From contig CAIVJW010000253.1 of the NCBI GenBank assembly GCA_903906315.1, forward strand, positions 1 through 47,784: a DNA stretch of 47,784 nucleotides, read 5' to 3'. Position numbers and translations under genes: made by a program. Under the pieces are notes generated by a model. The model had not been told where the DNA came from, searched no databases, and saw only the letters and a list, made by a program, of their open reading frames with translations. The first letter of the stretch is position 1. Each line of letters opens with the position of its first letter. This DNA comes from an uncultured delta proteobacterium (lineage in GTDB: Bacteria > Myxococcota_A > Polyangia > Polyangiales > Polyangiaceae). This document shows, piece after piece, positions 16,831 through 35,332 of this stretch.

Positions 16831-17763
16831 TCAGCCTCCGCGCTTGCGGAGCTCCTCGCGCAGGCGCGCGACCTCGCGCTCGGCCACCTCGCGCGCGGCC
16901 GTCTCGACCTTGCGCGCCTCCGCCTCGACCTGCCTCGCCGCCGCCTCGACCTTGCGCGCCGCCGCCTCCGCCTGCCTCGCCTCCGCCTCGACCTGCCTCG
17001 CCTCCGCCTCGGCCTCGGCGCGCGCCTCCGCCTCGGCCTGCCGCGCCTCGGCCTCGAGCCGCGCCGCGGCTTCGGCCTCGCGGCCTTCGAGCACCTCGTC
17101 CATCGCGCGCTCGAGGCGACCGATCAGGTCGTCGGCGTCGGCGACCGCCGCGGTCCCGGCGAAGAAGCGGAGCCGCCGGTCCGCAAGGCGCAGCTCCAGC
17201 CCGAGCACCCGCGACGCTACGAGGCCCGCCTGCGGCACGATGCGCTCGTAGACGCGATTCGCGCCGGCGAGGCGGAAGCCGTGCAGCCGGCTCGTCCCGA
17301 TCTCGACCACGAAGTACTCGGGGATGCCGAGCCGGGCGTAGCGCTCGACGTTGCGCACGTGGTCCTTCTCGCTGCTCGCTCGGTCGTGAATCTCGATGAC
17401 CACGTCGAGGCCGCGGCCTTCCTTCGAGACGATCCAGCTCGATCGCTCCCGGTCCTCGACGTCACGGACGGCCAGCACGTCGGGGCTGAACGGCGGCTCG
17501 CCGGGGTAGTACGTCGCGAGCTCGCTCGAGACGTAGATGCGCTGACCGGTCGTGCGGAAGTAGCGGCGCAGCGCGTCGGTCGCACGCACCTTCGCTTCGC
17601 GGTGGCGATCGCCCTCGGGAGGGTTCACCCAGAGCGGCAGCGAGGGGGGCAGCGCGGCGACCACACGGTCACGCTCCTCGGCGCTCATCGCGGCCCACGC
17701 TTCCTCGGTGGGCGCGCGGGGCAAGGCACGGTCGTCGTCGTGAAGGTCGCCCAGCTGCAGCAC
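16831..17763 (-). CDS. Uma2-family (PD-(D/E)XK-like) protein with a long heptad coiled-coil tail
   Basis: A 310-residue protein. The middle (about residues 15-215) is a Uma2/DUF820 domain with PPFSPDVLAVRD, LDVVIEIHDR and RYARLGIPEYFVVE in family order. Where many Uma2 proteins have a Lys four residues before the Tyr of YARLG, this one has Asn, so nuclease activity is doubtful. Residues 235-310 are almost pure heptads such as RQVEAEA and RKVEAAA, a predicted coiled coil, encoded by imperfect 21-bp DNA repeats. The start is a GTG at 17763, chosen because the APTEEAWAAMSAEER opening typical of the family follows. It lies directly beyond a decayed HepT remnant. Confidence 0.78.
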   Translation of the reverse strand: MLQLGDLHDDDRALPRAPTEEAWAAMSAEERDRVVAALPPSLPLWVNPPEGDRHREAKVRATDALRRYFRTTGQRIYVSSELATYYPGEPPFSPDVLAVRDVEDRERSSWIVSKEGRGLDVVIEIHDRASSEKDHVRNVERYARLGIPEYFVVEIGTSRLHGFRLAGANRVYERIVPQAGLVASRVLGLELRLADRRLRFFAGTAAVADADDLIGRLERAMDEVLEGREAEAAARLEAEARQAEAEARAEAEAEARQVEAEARQAEAAARKVEAAARQVEAEARKVETAAREVAEREVARLREELRKRGG

Positions 17764-24332: not shown

Positions 24333-25427
24333 TTACTTGTGCACGATGGGCGCGCACGTCGAGACGCCGGCGCCGATGATCGTGAAGCCGACGTCGGGGA
24401 CGTAGCCCTTGTCCAACGCCTTGCTCACCGGATCGAAGCGGAGGACCTTGCTGTGGGGCTTGCCGAGGCCGAGCGGGCCCGCGTAGAGGTAGAGATCCCC
24501 GGCCCAGAAGCTGAAGGCCCAGTTGTCCGGCGGCAAGACGCCGATCAGCACGTCGTCGGAGAGGATGTTCGCCGTCGCCTTGTCGATCTGCGCCACGCGC
24601 ACGAAGGGGAGCGTCCTGAAGTAGCCGAAGAGGCGCGCATCGCCCGTGCCCGTCAGCTCGGCGCTCTTGCCCAGGAGCGCCAGGTCCTTGCCGAAGCCAC
24701 CCACCAGCACGACCGCGCCGTTCACGACCTTCGCGAGGCCCTTGCCCTGGAGCGAGTCGAGGTACAGCGTCTCGGTCTGGCCGCCGGGCGCGTCGGCGAG
24801 GAAGCCCATGCCGACCTTCGCGAAGCCCTGGGGCAGCGCGATGCCGGTCGGCGCGCACCCGGACTTCTTCTTCACGTCGAACGTGAAGAGGCTGCCTGCG
24901 TAGTTGATCCAGGCGACGAGGTGGCGGTCGATCGCCATCGAGTTCGGCGCGCCCGCAGCCTGGCAGTCCGGCGTCGCCACCTTCGTGAACGACTTCTGCT
25001 GCGGGTCGAAGCTGTAGATCTCGCTGGTCGTGGAGAGCACGTAGACGAGCTCCGCCCCGTTCGCGCAGCCGTCGCCGGCGTCCGGCGAACCGGCTCCCCC
25101 GTCACTCGCCGCGCCCGCGTCGCCCGCATCGCCCGCCGCACCGGCGTCACCCGTGGGACCCGCGCCCCCGGCGGGGCCGGAGCCGCCGCCGCCCCCCGCT
25201 GCACCCGTCCCGCCCGTGCCCGCGCCGCCCGCCGAGGTCGAGCTCTGCGTCGCGCCCCCCGCCGAGCTGCTCCCGCTCGTCTCGCCTCCGCCGCTCGCGC
25301 CCGCTCCGCCGCCTCGCAGCACGTCGCCGCTGGACGACGGCGTGCTCGAATCGGAGCCGCACGCGACGAGCGCGGCCGAAACGAAGAAGGCGATCGCGGC
25401 GGTGATCTCGGATCGATTTCGGCCCAT
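24333..25427 (-). CDS. lipoprotein with Gly/Ser/Ala linker and propeller-like repeats
   Basis: A 364-residue secreted protein. The signal peptide has lipobox LVAC. About 85 residues of Gly/Ala/Ser/Asp linker follow, such as GTGGTGAAGGGGGSG. The remaining 250 residues have repeated short beta motifs (for example LVYVLSTTSEIYSFDPQQK, LVAWINYAGSLFTFDV and DLYLYAGPLGLGKPHSKVLR) that suggest a beta-propeller. The role is unknown, but the layout is typical of surface lipoproteins in this lineage. The start is the ATG at 25427; upstream lies the 43-bp repeat array. Confidence 0.8.
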   Translation of the reverse strand: MGRNRSEITAAIAFFVSAALVACGSDSSTPSSSGDVLRGGGAGASGGGETSGSSSAGGATQSSTSAGGAGTGGTGAAGGGGGSGPAGGAGPTGDAGAAGDAGDAGAASDGGAGSPDAGDGCANGAELVYVLSTTSEIYSFDPQQKSFTKVATPDCQAAGAPNSMAIDRHLVAWINYAGSLFTFDVKKKSGCAPTGIALPQGFAKVGMGFLADAPGGQTETLYLDSLQGKGLAKVVNGAVVLVGGFGKDLALLGKSAELTGTGDARLFGYFRTLPFVRVAQIDKATANILSDDVLIGVLPPDNWAFSFWAGDLYLYAGPLGLGKPHSKVLRFDPVSKALDKGYVPDVGFTIIGAGVSTCAPIVHK

Positions 25428-25604
25428 GGCATGCACCCCGACGCGCGAACGTACTCGGTGTTCGCCACCGAGGGTAGGAGCCGCGAGGGCGCGAGGAGCG
25501 CGTGCGCGTTGGCGCGGTCGAGGCTCGGGCCGCGGCGCGCCCAGCCAAGGCGGTCGCGAAGCAAGCCGCTTCAACCCGCAAGGCCACCTCGGCCCGGCCG
25601 AACC
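25428..25604. other. non-coding spacer upstream of the propeller-like lipoprotein
   Basis: No gene is supported between this lipoprotein start and the 43-bp repeats. The segment probably contains the lipoprotein promoter, but no convincing -35/-10 pair was found. Confidence 0.4.
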
Positions 25605-25970
25605 CTCCGCCGCGAGGTCGCGACCCGGCCCCGGTCGGTCCGCGACCCTCCGCCGCGAGGTCGCGACCCGGCCCCGGTCGGTCCGCGACCCTCCGCGGCG
25701 AGGTCGCGACCCGGCCCCGGTCGGTCCGCGACCCTCCGCCTCGAGGTCGCGACCCGGCCCCGCGTCCGCCGACGGCCTCGGGTCGAGCTTCCGACCCGAC
25801 TCCGCCCGGTCCGCGACCACCGCGGGCGAGGTCGCGACCTCGATCCGGGTGGTCGGCGACCGACCGGACCGAGGTCGCGACCCGGCGCCGGACGGTTTCG
25901 GGGCGTCGGGGACGGGGTCTCGGGCTCGGGCGGGGCGTCGCCGCCGGCCGCGGGCGAGGTCGCGCCCGCG
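25605..25970. repeat. array of 43-bp tandem units carrying a GGTCGCGACC palindrome
   Basis: Four nearly identical 43-bp units run from about 25605 to 25770, with GGTCGCGACC beginning at 25616, 25659, 25702 and 25745. The same period continues in decayed form: a degenerate copy near 25781, exact palindromes at 25830 and 25873 (again 43 bp apart) and a partial copy at 25958. Each of the first units also holds a related GGTCCGCGACC. The array fills most of the 569-bp gap between an MBL hydrolase stop and the next lipoprotein start. No convincing gene overlaps it. Confidence 0.75.
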
Positions 25971-25996
25971 CCGACGGCGCCCCCTCGCGGAGCGCC

Positions 25997-26638
25997 TCAG
26001 CGCGGCGCGCGCAGAAACGGGTTCGTGCGGCGCTCGGCGCCGATCGTCGTGGAGGGGCCGTGACCGGTCACCACGCGCGCCGCGTCGTCGAGCGTGAGCA
26101 GCTTGTGCCGGATCGACCGCAGGATGGCGTCGCCGTCGCCGCCCCAGAGGTCCGTGCGACCGATGCTGCGCTGGAAGAGCGTGTCGCCCGCGAACACCAC
26201 GAGCCCGGACTCCGTCTGCAAGGTGAAGCACACGCTGCCCGGGGTGTGCCCCGGCGTGTGCAGCACGCCGAGCTCGACCGCGCCCGCCACGACCGCGCGG
26301 CCGTCGACGAGGTCGCCCTCGACGTCCGCCTTGGCCACGGTGGGAACGCCGATCATCGCGGACTGGACGGGCAAGAGCTCGTAGAGAAACCGGTCCGCCT
26401 CGTGGATGCTCGCGACCGCGCCGGTGAGGGCCTGGAGCGGGGCGGTCGCGCCGACGTGGTCGACGTGCGTGTGCGTGTGGACGATGGCCTTGACCGTCGC
26501 CCCGAGCGCCTCGATCCGCGCCCGGATCGCCTCGAAGTCGCCGCCCGGGTCGACCACGATCGCGCTCTTGGTCGCGGGGTCGACGAGGATCGAGCAGTTG
26601 CACCCGAGGGGACCGGCCGGGAAGGTCTCGACGATCAC
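25997..26638 (-). CDS. MBL-fold metallohydrolase (glyoxalase-II-like)
   Basis: A 213-residue metallo-beta-lactamase-fold hydrolase. The zinc motif HTHVDH (His56, His58, Asp60, His61), a second ligand in HTPGHTPG, the bridging Asp in FAGDTLF and the late His in VTGHGP are all in place. The size is that of the short GloB-like/YcbL hydrolases, which act on thioesters or related substrates; no specific substrate is evident. It starts at a GTG at 26638, divergent from secA. The repeat array lies just beyond its stop. Confidence 0.9.
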   Translation of the reverse strand: MIVETFPAGPLGCNCSILVDPATKSAIVVDPGGDFEAIRARIEALGATVKAIVHTHTHVDHVGATAPLQALTGAVASIHEADRFLYELLPVQSAMIGVPTVAKADVEGDLVDGRAVVAGAVELGVLHTPGHTPGSVCFTLQTESGLVVFAGDTLFQRSIGRTDLWGGDGDAILRSIRHKLLTLDDAARVVTGHGPSTTIGAERRTNPFLRAPR

Positions 26639-26882: not shown

Positions 26883-30002
<3,120 letters not shown>

Positions 30003-35250: not shown

Positions 35251-35332
35251 TGCACGAGGAGGGACTCGAACCCTCAAGCCTTGCGGCGCCGGAACCTAAA
35301 CCCGGTGCGTATGCCAATTCCGCCACTCGTGC
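35251..35332 (-). tRNA. tRNA-Leu(UAG)
   Basis: Read on the minus strand, GCACGAG (5') pairs with CTCGTGC (3') as a 7-bp acceptor stem with discriminator A. The D arm TGGCGGAATTGGCATACGCA, the anticodon arm CCGGG-TTTAGGT-TCCGG with anticodon UAG, a 13-base long variable arm and the T arm GAGGG-TTCGAGT-CCCTC follow in order. The long variable arm and UAG anticodon make it tRNA-Leu for CUN codons. CCA is not encoded. Length 82. Confidence 0.95.

Follow-up and report, generated by a model that had tools for sequence, protein, structure and literature searches.

Phased GGTC-NN-GACC palindromes near gene 3' ends in Polyangia: probably a protein-binding array of a kind not yet described

Plasmid iterons and centromere-like arrays are direct repeats of a protein site set at whole helical turns, a layout to which the arrays described here bear a likeness. 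Polyangia, the class in which we studied these arrays, have genomes among the largest of any bacteria, and to our knowledge little is known about how transcription ends or how the chromosome is organised in them. VNTR minisatellites are built, as our arrays are, from head-to-tail units that vary in copy number. For REP elements the reported positions are gene 3' ends and the gaps between convergent genes (PMC3733652), and BIMEs are built as mosaics, the segments between their REPs being unrelated (PMC2817692). The arrays considered here are like REPs and BIMEs, BIME-2 among them, in being clustered intergenic palindromes with alternating dyads, found at 3' or convergent ends, dispersed over the chromosome and separated by mosaic segments; they are unlike them in having a fixed helical period of 41-44 bp and a class-wide hyphenated 10-bp core with unrelated spacers. 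Our literature searches found no description of such arrays, and the one analysed here is probably a protein-binding array of a kind not yet described rather than a simple repeat.

The window, that is, the whole stretch of DNA analysed, is an entire contig of 47,784 bp (C253) from a Polyangiaceae-like host genome of 8.79 Mb in 455 contigs. Of the tandem arrays that TRF reports in it, the one at 25602-25896 has the highest score (330), with a period of 43 bp, 6.9 copies and 79% matches. All six exact copies of the 10-bp palindrome GGTCGCGACC in the 47.8 kb fall within this array, and matches with at most one mismatch number 23 compared with 13.3 +/- 3.1 in shuffled sequence, a value reached by 0 of 100 shuffles. 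The array and its neighbouring genes are laid out as follows.

24333 to 25427, minus strand: downstream gene of 364 aa without a Pfam match, called as a reading frame; the likely start is 25427, which places the array upstream of the gene
25602 to 25971, no strand: array as a whole, some 8-9 units of 43 bp (TRF and 43-bp phase walk); four units (25602-25773) are clean and the others decayed
25616 to 25625, no strand: GGTCGCGACC site 1, exact match
25633 to 25647, no strand: second hyphenated dyad GGTCGgtccgCGACC near mid-unit, read from the sequence; recurs in units 2 and 3
25659 to 25668, no strand: GGTCGCGACC site 2, exact match
25702 to 25711, no strand: GGTCGCGACC site 3, exact match
25745 to 25754, no strand: GGTCGCGACC site 4, exact match
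25787 to 25796, no strand: decayed site in phase, offset -1, 6/8 arm bases (phase walk)
25830 to 25839, no strand: GGTCGCGACC site, offset -1 from the 43-bp phase (exact match and phase walk)
25873 to 25882, no strand: GGTCGCGACC site, offset -1 (exact match and phase walk)
25916 to 25925, no strand: decayed site GGTCTCGGGC, offset -1, 6/8 arm bases (phase walk)
25958 to 25967, no strand: decayed site GGTCGCGCCC, offset -2, 7/8 arm bases (phase walk)
25997 to 26638, minus strand: hydrolase gene of the metallo-beta-lactamase fold (PF00753), oriented with its 3' end towards the array; the stop lies 29 bp from the last site

Walking the array in 43-bp steps showed that units 4, 7 and 8 are decayed: of 8 arm bases they retain 6, 6 and 7, and their offsets are -1, -1 and -2 bp. 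The phase runs out at about 25967. The array thus comprises six exact and three decayed sites, with the 43-bp phase kept to within 2 bp, which bears out the original prediction of four clean units followed by decayed units in phase; it is larger than first noted, and its start moves from 25605 to about 25602. The prediction of a 10-bp palindrome in each unit was right about the palindrome and incomplete in that each unit also carries a second inverted repeat, the hyphenated GGTCG-gtccg-CGACC, close to the half-period. Placement of the sites on the same face of the DNA, also proposed, holds only approximately, since with 10.5 bp to a turn 43 bp makes 4.1 turns. The unit is non-coding according to a codon-usage gene finder, as had been expected.

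The array lies between the hydrolase gene, whose stop is at 25997, and the 364-aa gene, which probably starts at 25427; both genes are read in the same direction. The hydrolase finds its closest matches in Sorangium, Minicystis and Labilithrix, which makes the host a Polyangiaceae-like myxobacterium. Near the array region the window also encodes a SecA-like protein of 1039 aa (26883-30002, plus strand) with a weak SEC-C motif match. A tRNA gene (35251-35332, minus strand; 51 bits) was the one hit of an Rfam scan of the window, and a 21/63-bp repeat at 16886-17082 is probably a coding repeat, falling in an open frame whose codon bias resembles that of coding DNA.

The host genome holds two further 43-bp arrays. 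One lies across two contigs, C228 and C49, with an overlap of 141 bp between them, and starts right after an aminotransferase gene. This array and the window array are paralogues, 82-84% alike with the irregular units included. The other (C386:3118-3345) consists of AGGTCGCGACCT/AGGTCGGGACCT units in otherwise diverged sequence and sits between convergent genes, one of them for a Ser/Thr kinase. An alternative suggested at the outset was a partition or anchor site. Unlike phased operator or iteron arrays, the three host arrays are flanked by unrelated genes (hydrolase, aminotransferase, kinase) rather than replication or partition genes, and there are several per chromosome; across genomes the arrays are dispersed, differ from one genome to another and lie at ordinary gene 3' ends, so this role is not supported. 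A CRISPR was likewise rejected, as the repeat is 10 bp (compared with about 24-40 bp) and the spacers are near-identical in most arrays rather than unique.

Minicystis rosea has a 43-bp array at the equivalent place, right after the orthologous hydrolase gene, built on a different palindrome, GACGGGTCACCCGTC, and two additional 43-bp arrays of the same type at other loci. All three share an end resembling CCTTACAAAG(T/C)TG (L075 5690-5715, L098 1630-1650 and L099 1487-1505), which suggests a defined boundary. The same genome has an intergenic 53-bp array (L117 6710-6898) whose two strong dyads, ATGGGGCCGCTCGCGGCCCCAT and GGGCCGGcttgtCCGGCCC, are separated by about half a period. BLAST of the window array against relatives returned mostly weak matches that are likely low-complexity.

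Two exact copies of GGTCGCGACC 30-59 bp apart occur in 13 of 183 genomes of the order. Arrays with at least three sites were found in the host's own genus (43 bp), in genome G164 (42 bp) and in genus g20, which includes Sorangium (32 and 41-43 bp), with unrelated spacers among the three; G055, G136 and G137 have shorter or decayed arrays. The dinucleotide-matched control palindrome GGACGCGTCC gave six matches in five genomes and a single array, at 52 bp. When the centre was left free and three copies were demanded, spaced anywhere from 25 to 55 bp apart, arrays of GGTCNNGACC appeared in 25/183 genomes of the order versus 4/183 for GGACNNGTCC, and the backwards-read control palindrome gave few three-copy arrays. 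The same search matched 27/377 genomes in a phylum sample, coding matches among them; the non-coding arrays are mostly from several families of the class Polyangia, plus one outside family (f38). A match on a viral contig was rejected as an array, being coding DNA with GRDRSRP-like repeats. The counter-case to the original prediction, of arrays at random with variable periods or absent from all relatives, mostly fails, given that GGTC-NN-GACC arrays cluster strongly in period and occur in many relatives; it holds in part in that relatives also have intergenic tandem repeats of other kinds, whose periods vary.

Sites were chained in the fetched loci and genes were called with a codon-usage model, so that non-coding status rests on this simple gene finder. 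Among 56 non-coding arrays so defined, the modal period is 41-44 bp in 49 and 32 bp in 2, which amounts to whole helical turns as in a phased operator array, and 202 of the 232 successive spacings in these arrays taken together are 41-44 bp. The 16 arrays inside genes that were caught along the way provide an internal control: their periods are scattered from 27 to 54, nearly all in multiples of 3.

What lies between the sites differs from array to array. The GGTC-NN-GACC arrays contain 63 non-redundant spacers less than 60% alike, and in three Sorangium mosaic arrays (L243, L278 and L226) spacers within an array are no more alike than spacers between arrays (mean identity 0.36-0.37; null mean 0.39), although site spacing stays at 41-42 bp. 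The L243 mosaic is present twice in genome G174 (contig C1, 1748281 and 1761098), 12.8 kb apart, which implies a duplicated stretch. In four orthologous array pairs identified by their flanks, changes affected 8/160 positions of the GGTC/GACC arms, 13/40 of the central NN and 136/512 of the spacers; the difference between arms (5%) and spacers (27%) is significant (Fisher p = 2e-10), with arm conservation partly ascertained because both arrays of a pair were found via three exact sites. Phase-predicted units outside the defining triple are free of this ascertainment, and 39% of them match 7-8 of 8 arm bases compared with 0.4% at random places. Much of this 39% represents duplicated units, because it falls to just 9% (null 0.4%) for units with a spacer at chance-level identity.

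These comparisons bear on the possibility that the arrays are neutral minisatellites, in which slippage duplicates intergenic DNA and both palindrome and period are by-products. Near-identical units in many arrays, copy-number differences between orthologous arrays and the other intergenic tandem repeats of many periods in Polyangiaceae all fit that explanation. It does not, however, predict one palindrome with unrelated spacers in many genera, arms that change more slowly than spacers, control palindromes that rarely form arrays or a bias towards convergent genes, and slippage alone fails for mosaic arrays that hold constant spacing over unrelated spacers. Unlike in a VNTR, where duplication operates with no constraint within the unit, palindrome and period are constrained here, spacers are replaceable and position is non-random. 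We consider a neutral minisatellite unlikely.

It has also to be asked whether the arrays are a mobile or recombination-shuffled module, with 42-bp cassettes swapped at the GGTC-NN-GACC core. Spacer types are common to Sorangium arrays in different combinations, and the window and C228/C49 arrays are paralogues alike over irregular units. On the other hand, the Sorangium mosaics that we compared are largely orthologous in order, so that simple descent accounts for them, and an unsystematic look met no recombinase, target duplication or terminal repeat. Such a module is very improbable.

The arrays favour gene 3' ends, and convergent ones most. With both neighbours known for 40 arrays, 17 lie between co-directional, 6 between divergent and 17 between convergent genes; among 447 intergenic gaps of 150-1500 bp the corresponding numbers are 253, 140 and 54. 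The convergent excess (17/40 versus 54/447, p = 6e-6) is accompanied by a divergent deficit (6/40 versus 140/447, p = 0.03).

This distribution, intergenic with mostly uni- or convergent neighbours, matches the preference reported for REPs (PMC3733652) and raises the possibility that the dyads act as stem-loops in a transcript or in single-stranded DNA, serving to protect mRNA 3' ends, to terminate transcripts or to provide a REP-type transposase with its substrate. Compared with dinucleotide shuffles, arrays have the better fold (mean z -2.8; flanks -0.15), and with the cores fixed real spacers fold better than shuffled ones (mean z -1.1, p = 2.5e-5). The bases flanking the core also covary, position 5 being complementary in 57% versus 28% expected with AT, CG and GC pairs. 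Further covariation occurs at positions 15 and 17-19 around mid-unit, and the longest inverted-repeat arms peak exactly mid-spacer (3.83 versus 3.31 +/- 0.11 shuffled); the sequence of this mid-unit dyad differs from array to array, TTCGTATGagaaCATACGAA being an example. The mid-unit dyad and the structure carried by spacers make a purely one-site reading incomplete, and the fold potential also fits a hairpin role. BIMEs are mosaics likewise (PMC2817692). In copy number, REPs often exceed 100 per genome; our pattern search counted three-copy arrays, a few per genome, and in the 1.65 Mb sampled single copies of the motif outside arrays showed no clear enrichment.

Against hairpins, of the two tetranucleotide tags that mark one end of REP palindromes, GTAG is found near the dyad in 0/51 arrays (shuffled 10%) and CGTC is no commoner than in shuffled sequence (22% versus 19%). 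RNA hairpins do not demand that the period stay within 41-44 bp when the spacers are unrelated. It is apparently the sequence of the arms that is conserved and not their pairing, and a 2-nt centre would make a poor RNA loop. The window unit is not significantly more structured than its cores with shuffled spacer (z -0.4), and initial RNA folding with shuffled units gave no consistent signal. A REP- or BIME-like hairpin array is, in our judgement, somewhat unlikely.

With confidence and doubt about evenly balanced, we propose that the window array is a set of regularly phased sites for a putative dimeric DNA-binding protein at gene ends in Polyangia. Each site would be a hyphenated palindrome, GGTC-NN-GACC, bound by a putative dimer, and the 41-44 bp (sometimes 32 bp) between sites represent about four (three) helical turns, an arrangement in which dimers could occupy one DNA face and bind cooperatively. 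Cooperative protein binding, part of the original prediction, is the reading best supported by comparison, because the palindrome recurs at 41-44 (or 32) bp with unrelated spacers and orthologues keep the arms and not the centre or spacers; what the sequences show is the arrays with their spacing, conserved arms and position at gene ends, whereas the protein, its cooperativity and its purpose are inferred. The arrays are situated mainly just 3' of stop codons, especially between convergent genes, and their most likely job would be architectural: either halting transcriptional read-through or insulating against it, or handling supercoils where genes end. A wider proposal, possible though on the doubtful side, is that four-turn phased GGTC-NN-GACC dyads form a class-wide and hitherto undescribed chromosomal element in Polyangia by which a dedicated architectural protein marks gene 3' ends and separates convergent units. 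That a short palindrome keeps its helical spacing constant when all the DNA between its copies has been replaced is direct evidence for a constraint, and the phased palindrome offers a ready probe for fishing out the protein.

The array-specific mid-unit dyad counts against a single simple operator, as do arrays whose centre is 4 nt long and the presence of other palindromes at a period of 42-43 bp. That single copies of the motif were not clearly enriched outside arrays also weighs against the proposal. A half-site spacing of strictly 2 nt was not upheld, since GGTC-NNNN-GACC arrays (GGTCGATCGACC and GGTCCCGGGACC), largely from genus g15 and genome G031, share the 42-43 bp period; with all periods pooled, the 4-nt-centre pattern is found in 15/183 genomes. 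A TRF period survey of 1.93 Mb in 20-kb chunks, mostly not selected for arrays, returned 47 non-coding arrays of many periods, 9 of them at 41-43 bp. Several of these 9 carry other palindromes about half a period apart (the half-period of individual units was judged by eye), and it is possible that there is a broader class in which spacing counts more than sequence. A 43-bp array in genome G162 (L306 11907-12175) has GTCACcGTGAC and TCGAACGTTCGA about 21.5 bp apart without a GGTC/GACC core, and is the architecture without the sequence.
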